Source: Pseudoxanthomonas sp. JBR18 (GTDB lineage Bacteria; Pseudomonadota; Gammaproteobacteria; Xanthomonadales; Xanthomonadaceae). Taken from it: a stretch of 64,000 nucleotides of DNA. The notes below the pieces were generated by a model. It was not told the DNA's origin, did not search any database, and saw only the letters and a program-made list of their open reading frames with translations. The DNA lies in assembly GCF_028198165.1 (NCBI RefSeq), contig NZ_CP116339.1:3913001-3977000 (forward strand). Reading direction: 5' to 3'. A program made the translations under genes and the position numbers. Shown piece after piece: positions 6,147-31,269 of this stretch (position 1 is its first letter; each line of letters starts with the position of its first letter).

Positions 6147-7649
6147 TCATCCGCCCCAGATCTGGGGCGTGCTCTTGCAATAGCGATCGATAAACGCCTG
6201 TTGCATGGGCAACCCCGCGACCGCTTGCTGGATCGGCGCCCGGATCGAATCGATGAGTCCGCGCAGGTTGGCGTCCGACAATGCACGAGGCAAGGGATGG
6301 TGCTGCTGAGGCATGTCCCCCTGCCCCAGCAGGACGTGCACCCAGGAATCGGTGCGGAACAGCTCGTTGGAACTCTGCCAGACGTGCGCACATTCCTTCC
6401 ACGCGCGCAGCCGAAGCTCCAACGAGGAAGGCAGCGCCATTTCCCGGCAGTGCTGCCACATGGCTTCGGAGCGCTGGTTGGCGTGATAGTGCAGGATGAT
6501 GAAATCGCGTACGTGCTCCATTTCGGCACGACTGACTTCGTTGTAGATCTCGATCTGCGACGAGGCGATCCCCTCGAAGGGGAAAAGCATGAGCAGGCGC
6601 ATGACCGCGGCGATGGTCAGCTGAATGCTCGTGGACTCCAGGGGCTCGATGAAGCCACTGGCCAGCCCCAGGGCCACCACGTTCTTGTTCCAGACCTTGC
6701 GCCGCCGCCCCGTGCAGAACGGCACCAGACGCGGGTCGTTGATCGGCCTACCGCCGACCGCCTGCAATAGGTGGGCCTGCGCCTGGTCGTCGGACATAAA
6801 GCGACTGGCATACACCAGTCCATTGCCCACCCGATGCTGCAATGGGATCTGCCAGCGCCAGCCCGCCTGATGGGCGATGGCGCGTGTGTAGGGCAGCGGC
6901 GCCTGTGTCGATTCGGTCTGGACGGCGACGGCCCGGTCGCAGGGGAGCCAATGACTCCAGTCTTCGTATCCGGTCTGCAGGGTTTGCTCGATCAGCAGGC
7001 CGCGGAATCCCGTGCAGTCGATGAACAGATCCCCTTCGATGCGCTGGCCATCCTCGAGGATCAGTGCCTGGATGGCACCGTCGCGCTGGTGTTGGCTGAC
7101 ATGCGCAATCCGCCCTTCGATGCGCCTGACCCCATGACGCTCCGAGATGCCGCGCAGGAAGCGCGCATAGAGGCCTGCGTCCAGGTGGTAGGCATAGTTG
7201 AGCGGCGGACGCTGCTGCAACGCGAACCGCCCCTGACGCGACGCCTGAGTTTCAAGGCAGAACTCATCAAAATCCGAATGCATTCCGCGCCGCAGGGACT
7301 CAAGCCAGAAGTGGTGAAAGGCGCAGACCTGCGTGCCCTGGCCGACGATGCCGAATGGATGGATGTAGTGCTCTCCATCGCGCCTCCAGTTTTCGAAGGA
7401 GATGGACAGCTTGAACGTCCCGGCGACCGCGCGCAGAAACTCGCGCTCGTCGATCTGAAGGAACTGATGAAAGCTGCGGATGGGGGGAATGGTGGATTCC
7501 CCAACGCCCACCGTTCCGATCTGCTCGGACTCGACCAGGGTGATCTCCAGCTCCGTGCGGAACTGGTGCGACAGGGCGCATGCGGCAATCCACCCAGCCG
7601 TGCCACCGCCGGCGATGACCACCCTGCGAATCCGATCCGTCTCGCTCAT
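6147..7649 (-). CDS. Tryptophan-halogenase-family flavin-dependent enzyme in a TonB-receptor locus
   Basis: FADH2-dependent halogenase family (PF04820). Known members use chloride or bromide, oxygen and reduced flavin to halogenate tryptophan or indole; the substrate of the receptor-linked branch is uncertain. With the ATG at 7649 the protein is 500 residues. The dinucleotide motif GGGTAGW is at residues 14-20; Lys80 (in GTFKLSISF) matches the hypohalite-carrying Lys79 of PrnA; the halogenase signature WRWQIP is at 264-269; Glu338-Ser339 (in EPLESTS) match the PrnA Glu/Ser pair. All key residues are therefore present. No flavin reductase gene is nearby. Its frame begins within ~40 bases of the cupin stop, consistent with one operon. 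A TTG at 7688 would add 13 residues. Confidence 0.88.
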   Translation of the reverse strand: MSETDRIRRVVIAGGGTAGWIAACALSHQFRTELEITLVESEQIGTVGVGESTIPPIRSFHQFLQIDEREFLRAVAGTFKLSISFENWRRDGEHYIHPFGIVGQGTQVCAFHHFWLESLRRGMHSDFDEFCLETQASRQGRFALQQRPPLNYAYHLDAGLYARFLRGISERHGVRRIEGRIAHVSQHQRDGAIQALILEDGQRIEGDLFIDCTGFRGLLIEQTLQTGYEDWSHWLPCDRAVAVQTESTQAPLPYTRAIAHQAGWRWQIPLQHRVGNGLVYASRFMSDDQAQAHLLQAVGGRPINDPRLVPFCTGRRRKVWNKNVVALGLASGFIEPLESTSIQLTIAAVMRLLMLFPFEGIASSQIEIYNEVSRAEMEHVRDFIILHYHANQRSEAMWQHCREMALPSSLELRLRAWKECAHVWQSSNELFRTDSWVHVLLGQGDMPQQHHPLPRALSDANLRGLIDSIRAPIQQAVAGLPMQQAFIDRYCKSTPQIWGG

Positions 7650-7684
7650 GGCCGTTGACTCATGCAGGCATTCCCCCGGGTCCT

Positions 7685-8704
7685 TCAACGGTTCAGTCGA
7701 TTGATCAGCAGGGCGCGCAGCTGGCGCGAACTTGCTTCGTCCAACGGCCCCAAGACGTTGCGCGCGGATTCTGGCAGGTGTTCCCCGGCGCGCTCGGCCG
7801 GGCCGAACACGTAGTATTCGAACACTTCACGCCAGGCCTGTTTTTCTCGCTCCGGTCGATCGCGGATGGCCCAGAGCGCGTGATACATCGCAAGCGTCGG
7901 TGCGGGCAGATAGGCTGGCGCGCCGCTCCACCAGTAGTTCACCAGTACGTTGAACGGCGCGAGCGCCTGGACGTGGTGCCACCACATGCTGGGGATGAAG
8001 ACCGCGTCACCCGGCTCCAGGATCGCGCTACGCGCGTGCGCCAGTGCTTCGCGGAAACGCGGGTGGCGCGTGAAGTCCGGGCGGGTGAAATCAACCATGC
8101 TGACGACCTGCCCGCCTGGCGTCGGCTCCAGCGGCCCGGGATAGAGGTTGTGGATCTGCTCCGGCGGCAGCACCGTGATCCGGCGGCGACCCACCGCGCA
8201 GCACGCGATGTTGTTGGGCGCATCGTAATGGCAGGACGCAATCGTGCGGTTGCCGATCCAGATGCTCGGACGCGACACCACCCCGCAAGCCGCCAGATCC
8301 AGCGCGTTGTCCGCCAAGAATCCGGGCATATGCTGGTCCAGCAGCAATGAGGCCAGATAGAAGGTGGGCGGACTGGGATCTTCCAGATGCGCCGCGATCT
8401 GTCCCAGCAGTTCCTGTAGCGTGCCGCGACGCACCTGCGTGTTGAGGCCCGTTGCACTGTCATCGTAGAAAGGGCGGCCGTGGATCTCCGGCCCCCCATA
8501 GGAATACTGCACGGGCCGCCCGACGTCGTACTGCAGCAACGCCGACATGGCAGGCGCCGGCCCGGCCATGCCCTGCCTGACCAGACTCCAGTCCCGCGCG
8601 ATGCCGCGCAGCACGACGGGCGTGCCTGCGTCCACGAGCGACTGGACCGGAAGCGCACCGGGAGCGTGGCCCGTCAGTTCCTCGATGTCCGGCAGCGACG
8701 ACAT
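7685..8704 (-). CDS. Cupin-8/JmjC-like domain protein
   Basis: Cupin_8 family (PF13621), a fold shared with Fe(II)/2-oxoglutarate-dependent hydroxylases such as FIH and JmjC proteins. The Fe-binding facial triad is visible: HYD in ASCHYDAPNN for the first His and Asp, and the distal His in PSMWWHHVQAL. The 339-residue protein has no signal peptide, so a cytoplasmic protein, peptide or small-molecule hydroxylase is plausible, but the substrate is unknown. The ATG at 8704 directly follows the sapC stop (GTGATCATG junction); GTG at 8710 is an alternative. It lies between sapC and the halogenase gene, the usual order in carbohydrate-receptor loci of this family. Confidence 0.85.
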   Translation of the reverse strand: MSSLPDIEELTGHAPGALPVQSLVDAGTPVVLRGIARDWSLVRQGMAGPAPAMSALLQYDVGRPVQYSYGGPEIHGRPFYDDSATGLNTQVRRGTLQELLGQIAAHLEDPSPPTFYLASLLLDQHMPGFLADNALDLAACGVVSRPSIWIGNRTIASCHYDAPNNIACCAVGRRRITVLPPEQIHNLYPGPLEPTPGGQVVSMVDFTRPDFTRHPRFREALAHARSAILEPGDAVFIPSMWWHHVQALAPFNVLVNYWWSGAPAYLPAPTLAMYHALWAIRDRPEREKQAWREVFEYYVFGPAERAGEHLPESARNVLGPLDEASSRQLRALLINRLNR

Positions 8705-8706
8705 GA

Positions 8707-9471
8707 TCACCCCGGTAGCGGCGCGGCGGCCGGCGATGTCTCGGCTTCACGCAGGCGGCGCTGCTTCTCCGCCATCAGGCGCCGCACGTTGTGGAGCGAG
8801 GACAGCATCAGGAAGGCGCCCTCCAGATAGCCAGCGCGATGAAGTCCGTGCAGCGTGGTCGCATCCAGTGCCGCCAGGCATTCGCGATCGATGCCGTACA
8901 GGCCGGACAGACTCACGCCATGTTCGCCGTCCAGCCGCAGCGCCAGTTGGGTGGGCTGGATCAGCCCAGCCGCATCGAGCGCGGCGAACATGTCGCGGCC
9001 GGCGGCGTCGCCATCCCGGATGCCACGCAGGATGGTGATGATGTGCTCCAGGTATGGGCTCTGCCCCCCCTGTGGCAGAAACACCGCTTCGCCCTGCCCT
9101 GTCTGCAAGCGTGGGTGATCCAGATCGACGTGGATCACCGGCTCATTGACCAGCACCCCGTCGATGCGCTGCTCCTGGAATCCGATCAGGAACGGCCCCT
9201 TGGCCACAATCCCGGGGACGTAGGACGCATTCCAGCGCTGCCCCTGCAGGAACAGGTTCTCGCCCGCCTCGAATCCCAACACCGCCACGGCCTGGTAGCC
9301 ACCGCCGTCCGGCTCCTTGCGCAGGAAGATGGGGTACTCGCGTTGGAGCTCGGCGAATTCGGTTGGAAACGCCTGCACCAGGCCGACCTGGTCGCCGAAG
9401 GCGGTGCCAAAGCGCAGGTCCACCCTCAGGTCCTGATGCGCCACATTGTTCAGTAGTTCGTATCTTGCCAC
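8707..9471 (-). CDS. SapC family protein
   Basis: SapC-like protein (PF07277), named after a Campylobacter S-layer-cluster gene; its biochemical role is unknown. The protein has 254 residues and no signal peptide or membrane helix. Start is GTG at 9471, with GGAGG 5-6 bases upstream, a very good ribosome binding site. Visible family segments include YPIFLRKEPDGG and GFQEQRIDGVLVNEP. It overlaps the cupin gene, so the two are translationally coupled. It is the first gene after the receptor on the same strand, beyond a terminator, so it may have its own promoter or depend on read-through. Confidence 0.85.
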   Translation of the reverse strand: MARYELLNNVAHQDLRVDLRFGTAFGDQVGLVQAFPTEFAELQREYPIFLRKEPDGGGYQAVAVLGFEAGENLFLQGQRWNASYVPGIVAKGPFLIGFQEQRIDGVLVNEPVIHVDLDHPRLQTGQGEAVFLPQGGQSPYLEHIITILRGIRDGDAAGRDMFAALDAAGLIQPTQLALRLDGEHGVSLSGLYGIDRECLAALDATTLHGLHRAGYLEGAFLMLSSLHNVRRLMAEKQRRLREAETSPAAAPLPG

Positions 9472-12830: not shown

Positions 12831-13271
12831 CCGTGTGTCCTGTGGTCTGTGGCCGAACGGCCGGTGGCGCCAGCGGCAAGCGGCACGTGCCGCGCTGTTC
12901 TCGTAACTGGTACGTGAGCCAATAACTTGTGACGTCGCATTGGTCCCCTCCCCTCGTGGATCGATGGACCACCCCCCCGGACGGCAGCCACCGGCGGCCC
13001 TTGGCCGCAATCCCGCGTCGCGCTATGGAGCGACCGTTTCCGAAGATGGAAACGGATGCACCGAGCGCGCCGGTGGCCGAACCGCTCGGGCACCCGCTGG
13101 TGCCACTGCGCCTCCGCCCCCTCCTTCGTGTTCGCGACCTTATTTACGTGTTAGCGCTATCACAAAGTGGCGCCACATAATCATCAATGTCGCTGCTTGT
13201 CACCGTGCGTTGCAGCATGTGTAGCCGCTGACATCGGCTGTAACCGTTATCAACCGATCACTGCTTGGACT
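12831..13271 (-). promoter_or_regulatory. Long leader/promoter region of the TonB receptor
   Basis: 441 bases without a gene. It holds the LacI-type operator (13149-13162), an adjacent perfect 10-bp palindrome GTGGCGCCAC (13167-13176), and a perfect 8-bp hairpin CCGTTTCC/GGAAACGG at 13034-13055. If transcription starts near the operator, the receptor mRNA leader is roughly 300 nt. No promoter hexamers are convincing. Confidence 0.5.
13149..13162 (-). promoter_or_regulatory. LacI-type operator (xyl-box) upstream of the TonB receptor
   Basis: Read on the minus strand the site is TGATAGCGCTAACA, a 14-bp near-palindrome. It is identical to the site in front of xylB and differs at one position from the xyl-box TGGTAGCGCTAACA that I recall for XylR of Xanthomonas campestris. 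Probable binding site for the LacI protein encoded at 27247. Confidence 0.8.
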
Positions 13272-14093
13272 TTATGAAAAGACCAGCTCAAACCAGGCTT
13301 GCACACGCTCGCCAGGCAGCAGCACATCACTGCGCAGATTGAAGGCGTCGGGCGGCCCGGTTTGCGGCTCCAGGCATGTCGCGTGGGGTGTTTCGTCGTA
13401 CAAAACCCAGTGGTCGCAGCTGGCGGTGAGCAGTAGTCGCTGCCCCGCGCGCTCCAGGGCCGCTGCCTCGCCACTGATGTAACAGTCGTCCAGCGGACCC
13501 GGCGGCCGGGCCAGTGGCAGCGTGGCGATCCCTTGCTCGTCGCGCGGATAGAACGCGCGCGGATTGAAGGCGATGCGCTCGGCCTTGTGGAACCATGGAT
13601 GCCAACCCAGCACCGGACATGGCATCGCCCGCTGCCCCGCGCTGAAACTCAACTCCATCCGCAACCGGTTGGCCGACAGCGCGATTCGATGGATGGCCTC
13701 GCCGCCAAACGGCCAGCGCGGATCGTCTTCCAGCGACAGGGCCAAGGTCAGTTCAGTGCGTTGCTGCTCCAGCACACGCCATGGCCGGTCGAAGGCGACC
13801 CCGTGGATCGCATGCGGGCCCAGGTTGACCGGCAGCGCATGGTCCCGCGCCTCGAATTGGAAACGTCCGCTGCGTATCCGCCCCGCCCACGGCAGCATGG
13901 GATAGCAGCCCCAAGAGATCGCACCGGGGAAGCCCTGATCCGGGCCCACCAGCCAGTCCACCCCTTCGTACCGGATCGCCGACAAACGTCCACCGGCGTG
14001 TAAGGCCACCTCCACTGCCAGACCGGCGTCCTCCAGGCCGATGCAAGGGCCTGGCGGCAAGGGATCCAGCGCTGGATCAGTCGTCTTTTCCAT
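13272..14093 (-). CDS. Aldose 1-epimerase (mutarotase family)
   Basis: Interconverts alpha and beta anomers of aldoses, here most likely xylose released inside the cell. The 273-residue protein has the GalM-family catalytic set: HAIHGVAFDRPW in the N-terminal half, the catalytic His in GWHPWF, and the catalytic Glu in LEPQTGPPDAFN near the C-terminus. There is no signal peptide, so it acts in the cytoplasm. The ATG at 14093 overlaps the end of the upstream GH43 gene by 17 bases, so the two are translationally coupled in a symporter-GH43-epimerase operon. The open frame extends farther upstream but only as a shadow of GH43. Confidence 0.88.
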   Translation of the reverse strand: MEKTTDPALDPLPPGPCIGLEDAGLAVEVALHAGGRLSAIRYEGVDWLVGPDQGFPGAISWGCYPMLPWAGRIRSGRFQFEARDHALPVNLGPHAIHGVAFDRPWRVLEQQRTELTLALSLEDDPRWPFGGEAIHRIALSANRLRMELSFSAGQRAMPCPVLGWHPWFHKAERIAFNPRAFYPRDEQGIATLPLARPPGPLDDCYISGEAAALERAGQRLLLTASCDHWVLYDETPHATCLEPQTGPPDAFNLRSDVLLPGERVQAWFELVFS

Positions 14094-15096
14094 AGGGATA
14101 CACCGTGACGATGCTGCCATCGGGCGCATGCTGCAGTTCGACCACCTTGATCGACCGCAAGTGCGTAATCCCGCCAGAGTACAGGGCGTCGTGGTAATAC
14201 AGCCACCAGCGCCCGCCGAAGGCGACGATCGAATGATGTGTCGTCCATCCCACCACCGGCGCGAGCACCCTGCCCTGATAGGTGAATGGACCATACGGAC
14301 TGTCACCGGTGGCATAGCAAACGTAATGCGTATTCCCTGTGGAATAGGACAGGTAGTAACGGCCTCCGTGGCGATGCACCCAAGGCGCTTCGAAAAACCG
14401 ACGCGCGTGGTCGCCGGCGAGCAGAGGCTGGCCATCCTGGTCCAGGATCTGGACCTCCCGGGTCGGCTCGGCGAACTGTTTCATGTCTGCCGACAGTCGC
14501 GCGATGCGCGGCCCCAGCGCCGGCTGATCCTCGGCCGGTTCGTCGTAGTCGACGTGGTACTGATCATCGCGATAGTGCTGGAGTTGCCCTCCCCAAATAC
14601 CGCCGAAGTAAATGTAATGTGCGTCGCCGTCTTCCAGCACCGCCGGATCGATGGAATAACTGCCGACCATGGGCTCCGGCTCGGCCACGAAGGGGCCCTC
14701 CGGACGCTCGCCCACCGCCACGCCCAGTTGGAATCTGCCATCGGCACGCTTGGCCGGGAAGTACAGGTAATACCGACCGTCGCGGCATGCCGCATCCGGC
14801 GCCCACATCTGCCTTGAAGCCCACGGCACGTCCTTGACGTGCAGCGCCATGCCGCAATCCACCGCCTCTGCGTCCGGACCGTCCATGCGAAAGACGTGGT
14901 AGTCCTCCATCGCGAAGTGGTCGCCGTTGTCGTTGAACGCCGCGCCGCCCTCGATGTCGTGCGAAGGATAGATATAGAGGCGCCCCTCGAAGACGTGGGC
15001 TGACGGGTCGGCGGTGTACAGGTGGGTGACAAGCGGCGCCGAGACGGCCCTGTCAGCCAGCGCTTCGAGTTCGGTCGGATCAGTCAATTCGGTCAT
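14077..15096 (-). CDS. Cytoplasmic glycoside hydrolase family 43 (beta-xylosidase/arabinofuranosidase)
   Basis: Five-bladed beta-propeller glycosidase that probably releases xylose (or arabinose) from imported xylo-oligosaccharides. The 339 residues show the GH43 catalytic triad: general base Asp30 in YTADPSAHVF, the pKa-modulating Asp in YSIDPAVLEDG, and the acid Glu in FFEAPWVHRHGG. The segment YIYPSHD followed by DNGDHFAMEDYHVF is characteristic of compact, single-domain GH43 enzymes. It lacks a signal peptide and any carbohydrate-binding module, in contrast to the exported GH43 at 21 kb, so the two act in different compartments. It lies 33 bases downstream of the symporter gene. Confidence 0.9.
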   Translation of the reverse strand: MTELTDPTELEALADRAVSAPLVTHLYTADPSAHVFEGRLYIYPSHDIEGGAAFNDNGDHFAMEDYHVFRMDGPDAEAVDCGMALHVKDVPWASRQMWAPDAACRDGRYYLYFPAKRADGRFQLGVAVGERPEGPFVAEPEPMVGSYSIDPAVLEDGDAHYIYFGGIWGGQLQHYRDDQYHVDYDEPAEDQPALGPRIARLSADMKQFAEPTREVQILDQDGQPLLAGDHARRFFEAPWVHRHGGRYYLSYSTGNTHYVCYATGDSPYGPFTYQGRVLAPVVGWTTHHSIVAFGGRWWLYYHDALYSGGITHLRSIKVVELQHAPDGSIVTVYPYGKDD

Positions 15097-15129: not shown

Positions 15130-16620
15130 TCAGGCGCTCGATGCCGCACTGGCCCGGCGCAGTTCCAAGTCGTGTTCGATCCGCTTCTCAGTGGACTTGT
15201 TGATTTCGTAGCGGAACAACAAGGCGATCCCGAGCAGGAAGGGGATGGCGCAATAGACACTGACGGTCAGGCGGATGCCCTGCACCACCGAAGGCGACTG
15301 CACGGCCGCGTCTCCGTCGTAGCCATAGGCGGCCAGGATCGCCGCCACCAGTGCGCCGCCGATGCTTAGGCCAGTCTTCAGGCCACACAACATGGCCGAA
15401 AAGATGATCGCCGTGGCGCGACGGTGGTTGCGCCATTCCGAGTAATCGGCGACATCGGCGATCATCGCCCACAGCAATGGCGTGCTGATCCCGTAGAAGA
15501 AACCATGGAGCATGTAGGACAGCATCACCAGACCCACCGCGTCGGGTGGATAGAACGCGTAGGCCAGCAGACAAAGCGTGGACAGGAACAGCGAGCCACC
15601 GAAGACATCGCGCTTGCCGTAGCGATCGGCCAACCGACGCGAGAAACAAATGCCGCCGATCATGCACAGCACGCCGCCGGCACTGAACACGCTGAAGGCC
15701 GAGGTAGGCGCGTCCTGTGGCCAGTGGAAACCGGCCAGTCCCATGCCGATCAAACCACGGTTGAGGCCCTCGATGGCGCGATTGACACCGACCGCATCGA
15801 CGAAATGGGCCAGCGCCCCGGGATCCAGGTAGTACTTGAAGTAATAGACGTACATGCCTCCCTTCAACGCCAGGGTGACAAACACCAGGATGGTCAACAG
15901 CAACATGACGCGCCATGGACGGTTGCGCATCAGGTCGGTCAGGTCCTGGCGAATGCTCGACCCCTCCCCTGACACCGGCACCACCCGCTCGCGAGTGGTG
16001 AAGAAGGTGATCAAGAAGAACACCGTGCCGATCACGGCAAACAGGGCCATCGTGTACTCGAAGCCGCGCGCCTTGTCGCCATTACCCAGGATCAGCACCA
16101 ATGGCAGCAGCAGGACCTGGATGATGAACTGGGCAATCATCACCGCCACGAAGCGATACGAGGACAAGCTGTTGCGTTGATCCATGTTGCCGGTCAGCAC
16201 GCCACTGAGCGCCGAGTACGGCAGGTTGTTGGCCACGTAAACCAGCATCAGCAAGGTGTAGGTGGCCAGGGCGTAGGCCGTCTTGCCAGCCTGGCCCAGG
16301 TCCGGCGTGGTAAAGGCCGACAGCGACAGCACCCCGAACGGGATCGCGGTCCACAGGATCCAGGGCCGGAACTTGCCCCAGCGCGTGCTAGTGCGGTCAG
16401 CCAACACGCCGATGACGGGGGTGAAAACGAACGCCCCCAGCAGGCCGACCACGAAGATCACCTTGGCCGCGCTGGCCGCCGGGATGCGATAGACGTCGGT
16501 GTAGAAGAACGCGAGGAAGGTCACCAGGGTCTGGAAGATCAGGTTGGCTGCCAGATCGCCCAGGCTGTAGCCAATCTTCTCGCGGACCGAGAGCTTGCCC
16601 GTGGCGTCGGTCATGCGCAT
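15130..16620 (-). CDS. MFS sugar:cation symporter (GPH family), probably xylo-oligosaccharide uptake
   Basis: Inner-membrane transporter of the glycoside-pentoside-hexuronide family (MelB/XynB-like). The 496-residue protein has about twelve membrane helices, the family opening VREKIGYSLGDLAANLIFQ, and the cytoplasmic loop LADRTSTRWGKFRPWILW that includes the conserved Asp/Arg sequence between helices 2 and 3. The ATG at 16620 has GAGGG 4 bases upstream; a second in-frame ATG at 16614 is better spaced. It is the first gene of an operon with GH43 and an epimerase and is divergent from GH10. The shared intergenic region contains a perfect LacI-type operator. Substrate is inferred from the neighbours. 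Confidence 0.88.
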   Translation of the reverse strand: MRMTDATGKLSVREKIGYSLGDLAANLIFQTLVTFLAFFYTDVYRIPAASAAKVIFVVGLLGAFVFTPVIGVLADRTSTRWGKFRPWILWTAIPFGVLSLSAFTTPDLGQAGKTAYALATYTLLMLVYVANNLPYSALSGVLTGNMDQRNSLSSYRFVAVMIAQFIIQVLLLPLVLILGNGDKARGFEYTMALFAVIGTVFFLITFFTTRERVVPVSGEGSSIRQDLTDLMRNRPWRVMLLLTILVFVTLALKGGMYVYYFKYYLDPGALAHFVDAVGVNRAIEGLNRGLIGMGLAGFHWPQDAPTSAFSVFSAGGVLCMIGGICFSRRLADRYGKRDVFGGSLFLSTLCLLAYAFYPPDAVGLVMLSYMLHGFFYGISTPLLWAMIADVADYSEWRNHRRATAIIFSAMLCGLKTGLSIGGALVAAILAAYGYDGDAAVQSPSVVQGIRLTVSVYCAIPFLLGIALLFRYEINKSTEKRIEHDLELRRASAASSA

Positions 16621-16957
16621 CTATCCCTCAAGGCCAGCGTAGGTCGATCGAGTGGATCGTGTCGCATGTCCCCTTTCAACGCCATTGTTTGCGCCACCTC
16701 ACCGCTCCTGTGTTGGCGAATCCGCAGCAGGATTGCCCGCTTTGGCGGTCCCCGCACCTCGCTGCGCGCAAATTATGATAGCGCTATCATTCAAGGGTCA
16801 CGCTGCGCAGCAGCAATCGGTTGTGTCTCGCAAACGTTGTCCCCCATGGACGATGCCCTGCCCCTTGCTTTCAGGCTCCGTCCCTATCGCCGCGCAAACG
16901 CCCGGGCGCCTGCGGTGCCCTTGATCGAATGATCCATCCAGCCACGGAGCTTGCCGA
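16621..16957. promoter_or_regulatory. Divergent promoter region, symporter operon / GH10 xylanase
   Basis: 337 bases without a gene between two divergent units. The one clear element is the operator at 16775-16790, nearly midway (155 bp from the symporter start, 168 bp from the xylanase start), so a single bound repressor could silence both directions. Confidence 0.6.
16775..16790. promoter_or_regulatory. LacI-type operator (perfect palindrome)
   Basis: ATGATAGCGCTATCAT is a perfect 16-bp palindrome. Its core TGATAGCGCTATCA shares 13 of 14 positions with the operators at the receptor and xylB. It probably binds the LacI regulator at 27247 and controls both divergent transcripts. Confidence 0.85.
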
Positions 16958-18211
16958 ATGCCGCAACCATCCCAGCCCTCCCTGCCCCACTGCATCGTGC
17001 GGCCTGCCGCCAGCGCAGCCAGGACCCTGACCTCGACGCGATCGCGCCTGGGCCGCCCTCGTCTGGCCGTGCTGTCCGCCACCCTGATCGCACTCGCCAG
17101 TATCACAGCCAGTGCCGCACAGCCCCAGAGTCCTCAGACCTTGAAAGACGCCTATCGTGGTGATTTCAACGTGGGTGTCGCCATCGGCGATGGCGTGGTC
17201 AGCGGGAAAGACACCTGTGCCCGCCAGGTGGTGCTCTCGCAGTTCGACAGCATCAGCCCGGAAAACACGCTCAAGCCCGAGGTGCTGCATCCCAAGCCTG
17301 GCGTCTACGACTTCAGCAAGGGTGACGCGTATGTGGACTTTGGGCGCGCACATGGCATGTTCGTGGTCGGGCATACGCTGCTGTGGCACATCCAGACCCC
17401 GGCATGGATGTTCACCGATGCGCAAGGCACCTCACTCGATGCCGATGCCCAACTCGCTCGCTTGCGCGACTACATCCAGCGGATTGCCGGCCACTATGCG
17501 GGCCGCGTGCAAGGCTGGGACGTGGCCAACGAAGTCATCGACGAGTATGGCGGTTACCGGGAGAGTCCGTGGCTGAAGAATGTCGGCGACGGTGATCGCC
17601 TCCTGCGCGAAGCCTTCCAGGCCGCCGCCCGCCATGCGCCGCAGACCGAGCTGTACTACAACGACTTCGATACTTACAAGCCGGACAAGCGCGCCGGGAT
17701 CGTGCGCTTGGTCAAGATGCTGCAGGCGGCGGGATTGCGCATCGACGGCGTCGGCATGCAGGGCCACTGGGGCCTGGATCGCCCCTCGATCGCGGAAATT
17801 GAACAGACCATCGACACCTTCTCCGCGCTTGGGGTCAAGGTCATGATCACCGAGCTGGATATCGACGTCCTGCCGCAGCCTGCCCAGACCGAAGGCATGC
17901 CCGCGGACCAGCGACTGGCGCTTCCCACCGACGCGGTCGCGCGCCGCAAGCTGGACCCTTACCCGGATGGCCTGCCCGATGACATGCAACGACGCCTGGC
18001 GCAGCGTTACGCCGACCTGTTTGCGCTATTCCATCGCAAGCGCGCGGCCATCTCCCGGGTGACCTTCTGGGGCGTGCAGGACGGCGGCTCCTGGAAAAAC
18101 GATTACCCGGTCCAGGGCCGCAGCAACTATCCCTTGCTGTTCGACCGCCAGTGCATGCCCAAGCCCGCGCTCGACGCGGTCCTGCGCGTGCCGACACAGC
18201 ACACCCCCTAG
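16958..18211 (+). CDS. Secreted endo-1,4-beta-xylanase, GH10
   Basis: Cleaves internal beta-1,4 bonds of xylan to xylo-oligosaccharides by a retaining mechanism. The 417-residue protein has a long (~53 residue) signal region with a basic stretch (RLGRPRLAVLSATLIALA) and a cleavage site around ASA-AQP, then a single GH10 (beta/alpha)8 barrel. The acid/base Glu192 is in WDVANEVIDE, and the nucleophile Glu299 is in MITELDID. Substrate-binding GHTLLWH and the late WGVQDGGSW motif are also present. No carbohydrate-binding module is visible. The ATG at 16958 has GGAG 8 bases upstream. It is transcribed divergently from the symporter operon, under a shared operator. Confidence 0.95.
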   Translation: MPQPSQPSLPHCIVRPAASAARTLTSTRSRLGRPRLAVLSATLIALASITASAAQPQSPQTLKDAYRGDFNVGVAIGDGVVSGKDTCARQVVLSQFDSISPENTLKPEVLHPKPGVYDFSKGDAYVDFGRAHGMFVVGHTLLWHIQTPAWMFTDAQGTSLDADAQLARLRDYIQRIAGHYAGRVQGWDVANEVIDEYGGYRESPWLKNVGDGDRLLREAFQAAARHAPQTELYYNDFDTYKPDKRAGIVRLVKMLQAAGLRIDGVGMQGHWGLDRPSIAEIEQTIDTFSALGVKVMITELDIDVLPQPAQTEGMPADQRLALPTDAVARRKLDPYPDGLPDDMQRRLAQRYADLFALFHRKRAAISRVTFWGVQDGGSWKNDYPVQGRSNYPLLFDRQCMPKPALDAVLRVPTQHTP

Positions 18212-31255: not shown

Positions 31256-31269
31256 TGTTAGCGCTATCA
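31256..31269 (-). promoter_or_regulatory. LacI-type operator (xyl-box) upstream of xylB
   Basis: TGATAGCGCTAACA on the minus strand, identical in sequence and orientation to the operator of the TonB receptor. It lies 48 bp upstream of the xylB start codon, a position suited to blocking the promoter. Confidence 0.85.

Follow-up and report, generated by a model that had tools for sequence, protein, structure and literature searches.

A SapC, cupin and halogenase cassette linked to one clade of TonB-dependent receptors in Pseudoxanthomonas and other proteobacteria

A subgroup of flavin-dependent halogenases (FDHs) is known from solved structures and in-vitro activity, and its native substrate has been stated to be unknown (PMC7336383). 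BrvH, a member of the subgroup, brominates indole in vitro but not tryptophan; the turnover was low, and the authors doubted that indole is the natural substrate (PMC5945002). Both BrvH and Xcc4156 reject free tryptophan, and a peptide substrate has been proposed for the two enzymes (PMC7336383, PMC5945002). Carbohydrate utilization loci containing TonB-dependent receptors (CUT loci) have been described for Xanthomonas and aquatic bacteria (PMC1790865), and the Xanthomonas xyl-box has been given as TGGTAGCGCTAACA (PMC7748154). This study investigated a 64,000-nt stretch of the genome of Pseudoxanthomonas sp. JBR18 (Gammaproteobacteria; Xanthomonadales; contig NZ_CP116339.1, positions 3,913,001 to 3,977,000; hereafter the window), in which genes encoding a SapC-family protein, a JmjC-like cupin and an FDH lie behind a TonB-dependent receptor gene in a xylan locus. 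A first-pass annotation, made from the sequence letters alone, had singled out these three genes and proposed that the two enzymes may modify a peptide, an aromatic plant molecule carried with xylan, or the receptor itself.

The results revealed that the link between this cassette and its receptor is certain: SapC, the cupin and one or often two FDHs, joined in some loci by a DUF6445 protein, are inherited as a unit with one receptor clade. Two sets of loci were compared, and their neighbouring genes were called with a simple heuristic based on length and GC content. The first set comprised 80 SapC loci hand-picked for genus spread from genome match lists; the second, a non-random one, comprised the 80 best-scoring of 582 FDH matches, from which 12 loci without the full upstream sequence were excluded, leaving 68. 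The order receptor-(FDH)-SapC-cupin-FDH, on a single strand, was found in 48 of these 68 loci, and 25 of the 48 complete cassettes carried the extra FDH. A TIGR01782 receptor lay upstream on the same strand in 60 of the 68. The remaining eight were four lone FDHs (L283, L292, L297, and L322), three arrays (L330, L339, and L342), and one locus with FDH-SapC-cupin-FDH in which the receptor was not found (L338). Each of the three arrays consists of four tandem PF04820-type open reading frames (ORFs), and the opposite strand carries a TIGR01782 receptor. Among the 80 SapC loci, SapC stood in a receptor cassette in 27, 26 of which also contained the cupin; it accompanied an FDH and a receptor of a different group, with no cupin, in two (L136 and L141), and it was solo in 51.

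The complete cassettes span the alpha-, beta-, and gammaproteobacteria and occur in Sphingomonas, Asticcacaulis, Duganella, Ideonella, Alteromonas, Shewanella, Cellvibrionales, Xanthomonas, and others. The first-pass annotation stated that similar sets occur beside TonB receptors in Xanthomonas and Caulobacter, and the co-occurrence was found to reach well past Xanthomonas and Caulobacterales. The genome survey that it had called for likewise gave a co-occurrence with sugar-type TonB receptors far beyond chance. Of 151 genomes of the order, 55 contained SapC and 77 an FDH at E<=1e-60; in a phylum sample, SapC was present in 84 of 249 genomes. The genome of the window (G000) also carries another cassette, in which there are two FDHs (C1:1968000-1986000, L011), and a receptor accompanied by an FDH only (396000-410000, L012). 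No description of the three-gene set was found in the literature searched, although a mention in the main xylan paper (Dejean 2013) is possible, and no paper linking the set to TonB receptors was among the matches listed.

We further analyzed the receptors. The window receptor scored 867.5 bits against TIGR01782 (cut-off 310), and its AlphaFold2 model had a predicted local distance difference test score (pLDDT) of 84.3. When 69 TIGR01782 receptors were placed in a midpoint-rooted tree, one group comprised the 31 cassette receptors together with two tandem neighbours; this group contained none of the 36 other receptors and includes the window receptor. A profile of this clade, applied to the five top-ranking candidates of each genome, identified 45 receptors in 33 of the 151 genomes, and their places were matched by hand to the SapC matches. 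SapC lay directly behind the receptor, or one FDH further on, in 37 of the 45; the rest comprised one tandem partner, five receptors with the cupin only (all in one genus), one with an FDH only, and one without any partner, which was a borderline match at 781 bits. The partial sets, too, lay behind receptors that belong to this clade or score within its range, namely cupin only (L232-236), FDH only (L237), SapC with FDH (L198), and two FDHs (L275, L279, L303, and L307). Across 72 complete cassettes, the divergence of the four genes was correlated pairwise, with Mantel r values of 0.62-0.87 against a permutation maximum of 0.15 in a test without species-tree control; the highest value was that of the receptor and FDH (r 0.87). 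That the adjacency is due to chance, or is merely local, is refuted by these correlations and the 48 of 68 loci in the same order.

The coordinates of the three genes in the window were confirmed (Table 1). SapC and the cupin overlap by 4 nt, as do the cupin and FDH ORFs. The FDH ORF opens at 7688 with TTG, and the ATG at 7649 (MSETDR) is the likely start, which would leave a gap of 35 nt behind the cupin. The description of the genes as tightly packed thus stands for SapC, cupin and FDH and fails between receptor and SapC, which are separated by 200 nt containing a strong stem-loop. By eye, a signal sequence was seen in the receptor and in none of the other three proteins.

Table 1. Features of the cassette and of its surroundings in the window.
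Feature	Positions	Strand	Basis
Flavin-dependent halogenase (FDH), PF04820, 500 aa from ATG	6147..7649	-	PF04820 E 2.5e-192
Cupin_8/JmjC (FIH-like), putative Fe(II)/2-oxoglutarate oxygenase	7685..8710	-	PF13621 E 1.8e-64
SapC (PF07277), 254 aa	8707..9471	-	profile E 1.5e-63
12-bp stem-loop	9619..9655	-	folding, z -4.86 over 121-nt stretch
TonB-dependent receptor, TIGR01782, 1052 aa	9672..12830	-	profile match; signal-like N-terminus MNHKLKKFKSRAMF...
Xyl-box-like operator TGTTAGCGCTATCA, 5' of receptor gene	13149..13162	.	site scan of window
Glycoside hydrolase family 43 (GH43) protein, same locus	14077..15096	-	profile match
GPH sugar symporter, same locus	15130..16620	-	profile match
Second xyl-box-like operator, between GPH symporter and GH10 xylanase genes	16776..16789	.	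site scan
GH10 xylanase, same locus	16958..18211	+	profile match
Third xyl-box-like operator, 5' of gene MSLYVGLDVGTQSVKL...	31256..31269	.	site scan

The window FDH matched PF04820 with 640 bits and carries the FAD-binding GxGxxG motif as GGGTAG. The catalytic residues named beforehand, Lys80, Glu338, and the WRWQIP signature, were all present when numbered from MSETDR. Its best sequence relatives in the PDB were Xcc4156 (6y1w, 561.5 bits), 9luq, and BrvH (6frl, 462.8 bits), in that order; the earlier statement that a related halogenase brominates indole in vitro therefore holds for BrvH, with tryptophan excepted (PMC5945002). The Lys, the Glu and the Ser following it were retained in all 27 intact final-position cassette FDHs of the first locus set, a tally that leaves out two pieces of one broken gene (L089). 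A second type, comprising 18 other FDHs in or beside cassettes, keeps the Lys and Glu and has Ala in place of the Ser. These 18 ORFs also have Gly or Ala where WxWxIP has Pro. In L120, where an FDH lies close to a solo SapC, the Lys, Glu, and Ser places of the FDH are taken by Arg, His, and Gly.

The window cupin scored 218.5 bits against PF13621, and its best PDB relatives were FIH and JMJD5. The His-Asp-His iron triad claimed for it was present as HxD...H and was invariant in all 29 cassette cupin ORFs. In pairwise alignment with FIH, the position of Lys214, the 2-oxoglutarate-binding lysine of FIH, was occupied by Arg in all 29, and we therefore class the cupin as FIH-like rather than as FIH. 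With these residues in place, the FDH and the cupin both appear intact, in line with the earlier proposal that they are probably active. The window SapC scored 214.8 bits against PF07277 (gathering score 28.9). Its predicted structure was of high confidence (mean pLDDT 96.5, predicted template modelling score 0.90), and no fold match was found for it in the PDB or BFVD at E<=0.001.

FDHs of this subgroup were also examined in 20 regions that lack SapC, picked mostly from the top of the FDH match list. A receptor lay just upstream in 17 of them (within one gene in L257): 14 of the PF25183/CarboxypepD_reg type, two of TIGR01782, and one plain PF00593. Seven of the 14 were Pfam-confirmed; among the 13 large receptors directly upstream, six were Pfam-confirmed as PF25183-type and seven were assigned by size, position, and alignment. 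In the other three regions, the receptor lay downstream of the FDH (L258), or no receptor was seen and the FDH stood near a sugar transporter or pullulanase (L256 and L260). Halogenases of this subgroup thus seem often to accompany TonB receptors. In three regions (L248, L250, and L252), the FDH and a large PF25183-type receptor upstream of it (confirmed by Pfam for L250) adjoin a PF10091 'glycoamylase' gene; L250 also contains a LacI gene and a solute-binding protein gene, and L249 an ABC permease gene.

The reading that we favour, at a probability of roughly 0.35, is that the cassette tailors a polypeptide in the cytoplasm, with the receptor as the likeliest client and SapC as an adaptor. 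FIH and JMJD5 act on polypeptides, and the JmjC-type enzymes, together with this FDH subgroup, point to polypeptide substrates. Because SapC, the cupin, and the FDH show no signal sequence, they would act in the cytoplasm. SapC would bind the client, the FDH would brominate an indole-type group on it, and the cupin would hydroxylate it; the client may be the receptor or a piece of it, reached before it crosses the inner membrane. The outcome would be a modified receptor that is produced only when the operon is induced by its sugar. Several observations speak for the receptor: it stays constant across cassettes whose sugar genes differ, the partial sets stay with the same receptor clade or score range, 37 of the 45 clade receptors have SapC directly behind or one FDH further on, and the receptor-FDH pair has the highest Mantel correlation.

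The neighbours of solo SapCs bear on the adaptor role. Among the 51 solo SapCs, 5 lie directly beside ORFs of at least 3000 aa that extend up to the locus boundary (L085, L104, L106, L117, and L120); one of these giant ORFs contains RTX repeats, and two others had no Pfam match. The neighbours of solo SapCs otherwise belong to mixed families, as scanned for 58 of 93 neighbours. Of five plasmid regions with a solo SapC that were inspected, three adjoin an autotransporter (5369 aa), a LEPR-XLL protein (3473 aa), and a DUF4214 protein (1048 aa), at L350, L351, and L352, respectively, and two lie near ABC-transporter genes. Such giant or exported-type neighbours led us to read SapC as an adaptor for exported clients, and their adjacency is suggestive only as a hint to its function. 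A broader proposal, in which a sugar-induced protein-tailoring system uses SapC to capture the outer-membrane receptor, and perhaps other giant exported proteins elsewhere, for bromination and hydroxylation by the FDH or FDHs, the cupin, and sometimes DUF6445 before export, is doubtful. A TolC gene occurs near one solo SapC that stands beside a giant or exported-type protein, and a small DUF6447 gene lies directly beside the solo SapC on two unrelated plasmids (L347 and L352).

Several observations weigh against the receptor as the client of a SapC adaptor. Most solo SapCs (46 of 51) have no giant protein immediately next to them. Common ancestry by itself can increase the Mantel correlations, and the receptor and FDH, as the longest proteins, are the least noisy in that comparison. 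The tie between FDH sets and the cassette-receptor clade is not exclusive, since in L254 the set FDH-cupin-FDH follows a TIGR01782 receptor that does not belong to the clade; given this locus and the FDHs behind other receptor types, one receptor motif cannot be the target of all. Receptor residues were tracked in 72 complete-cassette receptors, 5 cupin-only receptors, and 7 FDH-bearing receptors without a complete set directly behind them. Of 127 columns conserved in the complete-cassette receptors, 126 were kept in the cupin-only group, the sole change being P223 to Gly in all five, and all 127 were kept in the FDH-bearing group. The receptor may still be the substrate, as had been proposed, but the tracking was negative: one conserved column changed where the FDH is lacking and none where the cupin is lacking. 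In G047, one of the five cupin-only genomes, no FDH reached E<=1e-60 among the 10 of 12 candidates that were scored, and the receptor there keeps all seven conserved tryptophans checked. Two caveats apply to the tracking: four of the five cupin-only genomes hold a receptor, SapC, and FDH elsewhere, and the modified residue need not be conserved.

Five residues are specific to the receptor clade, namely W344, W666, W972, N308, and H413 (counted from the MNHKL start). They were dropped as candidate modification sites because they persist in G047, which yielded no FDH at that threshold, and because the three tryptophans lie at outer strand ends. In the predicted model, with strand positions counted by hand, W344, W666, and W972 appear at the outer ends of upward strands, a placement that would fit sugar binding at least as well and that also counts against receptor modification. 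A tryptophan motif common to cassette and PF25183-type receptors was also sought by eye in conserved-tryptophan contexts, and none was seen.

A different account holds that the substrate is a small molecule imported by the receptor, such as a plant or algal aromatic, indole, or a phenolic, which would be hydroxylated and halogenated in the cytoplasm for detoxification or use; we regard it as unlikely, though a serious possibility. The occurrence of FDHs behind several receptor types, several of them in sugar loci, is consistent with cargo chemistry as the shared element, and the window cassette operon carries a xyl-box. The sugar context of the cassettes is mixed. Among the neighbours of 27 cassettes (91 proteins scanned of 199 called) there were 13 LacI, 7 GH3, 4 GH1, and 4 FGGY kinase matches, and among those of 41 cassettes (112 scanned of 163) there were 7 GH3, 7 LacI, and 4 GH16. 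In Sphingobium RAC03, the cassette sits with GH16, GH3, GH43, LacI, and a major facilitator superfamily gene; a Pseudoalteromonas plasmid has receptor-FDH-SapC, with no cupin, beside alpha- and beta-galactosidase genes; and a Sphingomonas plasmid cassette has no sugar gene annotated close by. Since many neighbours matched none of the listed families, the sugar was identified for only part of the loci.

The cassette is therefore not xylan-specific, as its relatives sit with beta-glucan genes, and this argues against an imported cargo: to our knowledge, xylan, beta-glucan, and galactoside loci share no one aromatic substituent. The more specific suggestion of an aromatic carried with xylan was weakened, because the cassette was also found near GH16/GH3 genes and near GH3 and GH1 genes, and the set without a cupin near galactosidase genes. 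The 25 commonest families of the 91 and of the 112 scanned neighbours included a single candidate for aromatic cleavage, PF03055, in 1 of 112. The action of BrvH on free indole favours a small-molecule cargo, whereas its low turnover and the doubt about indole as natural substrate count against it (PMC5945002).

The set of up to two FDHs, a cupin, and DUF6445 in one operon also resembles a tailoring set for a short peptide. DUF6445 (PF20043) is an optional fifth gene that in several cassettes lies 3' of the FDH. With a local profile, 13 of 80 FDH loci were seen to contain it, complete cassettes accounting for 9 of these (out of 48), as were 6 of 83 first-set loci; it mostly lies beside the FDH (L267:9550-10242, L281:9486-10244, L301, L306, L319, L118, L133, and others), and none was found in the window. 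A single 744-aa frame at L320:7980-10211 combines FDH and DUF6445 (PF04820 621.8 bits, PF20043 205.6 bits), a fusion that ties DUF6445 to the FDH. Six of eight aligned proteins were DUF6445, with HFD-like...H...RLT, and from the HxD...H...RxT pattern the family is a putative Fe(II)/2-oxoglutarate oxygenase; a search of DUF6445 against PDB sequences gave no match (best E 0.83).

A peptide substrate of this kind, resembling a ribosomally synthesized and post-translationally modified peptide, would come from an unannotated gene, and the receptor would be its importer or sensor. Peptide substrates have been proposed for this FDH subgroup (PMC7336383), and a spacer with an approximate median of 138-163 nt regularly lies behind the receptor. 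Against such a peptide, this spacer contains a strong stem-loop, and the other gaps in complete cassettes have medians of approximately 30 nt; judged on the stem-loop and these gap lengths, the peptide is improbable. In the window, the stem-loop begins 16 nt past the receptor stop codon. The 80 nt after the receptor stop gave z values below -2 in 43 of 49 loci with a clade receptor, SapC, and cupin; control stretches did so in 2 of 49 loci when taken from the coding region 300 nt ahead of the stop, and in 2 of 49 when taken near the SapC end. A clear T-run followed the stem in only 4 of the 49, so that a simple terminator is a poorer fit than attenuation or RNA processing, and the stem-loop is possibly an attenuator or a processing site.

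The near-palindrome TGWTAGCGCTATCA occurs in three copies in the window against 0.07 expected, and the copies at 13149, 16776, and 31256 differ from TGGTAGCGCTAACA by one, two, and one mismatches, respectively. The gene 3' of the third copy is FGGY/xylulokinase-like, by eye only, from its reading MSLYVGLDVGTQSVKL... Because the cassette operon carries a xyl-box, it is probably a member of the XylR xylan regulon, in which case XylR would probably repress the cassette, and induction would occur together with that of the xylan genes. Such a tie of expression to sugar availability, probable in this genome from its operator, would also suit a diffusible halogenated or hydroxylated metabolite, a signal or inhibitor made from an internal precursor when sugar is present, with the receptor as a merely co-regulated neighbour. 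The tryptophan halogenases PrnA and RebH make bioactive halo-compounds. The conserved order, however, holds only the receptor, FDH, SapC, and cupin; no recurrent synthetase was seen among the neighbours, which were examined in part; and the strict linkage to one receptor clade, together with the correlated divergence, exceeds what co-regulation would give. We consider a metabolite of this type more improbable still than a short peptide.

For an FDH subgroup with structures and activity in hand, a receptor-SapC-cupin-FDH unit that crosses three proteobacterial classes narrows the substrate suspects to the receptor, its cargo, and a peptide. Should the receptor prove to be the target, this would be bacterial halogenation of an outer-membrane transporter, of which no description was found in the literature searched. 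The natural variants, namely cupin-only, FDH-only, two-FDH, and DUF6445 sets and the FDH-DUF6445 fusion, make the substrate question testable.

Compared with the described systems, the window FDH shares the same Lys and WxWxIP with BrvH, whose gene also has an adjoining second FDH gene resembling the two-FDH cassettes (PMC5945002). A word search of the published Xcc4156 and BrvH texts gave no mention of TonB or SapC. A word search for halogenase and/or SapC in open Xanthomonas texts likewise yielded no mention of the cassette, the two halogenase mentions being of xanthomonadin genes. Solo SapCs (PF07277) belong to the same family as the cassette SapC and share the invariant E38, N72, P86, and P93, whereas they form a separate tree group and stand without a cassette. 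The FIH/JMJD5-type JmjC oxygenases resemble the cupin in the iron triad and in local sequence similarity, with FIH differing in having Lys214 where the cassette cupins have Arg. The CUT loci and the Xanthomonas XylR regulon are like the window locus in combining a TonB receptor, a LacI-type operator, GH43 and GH10 genes, and a sugar symporter.

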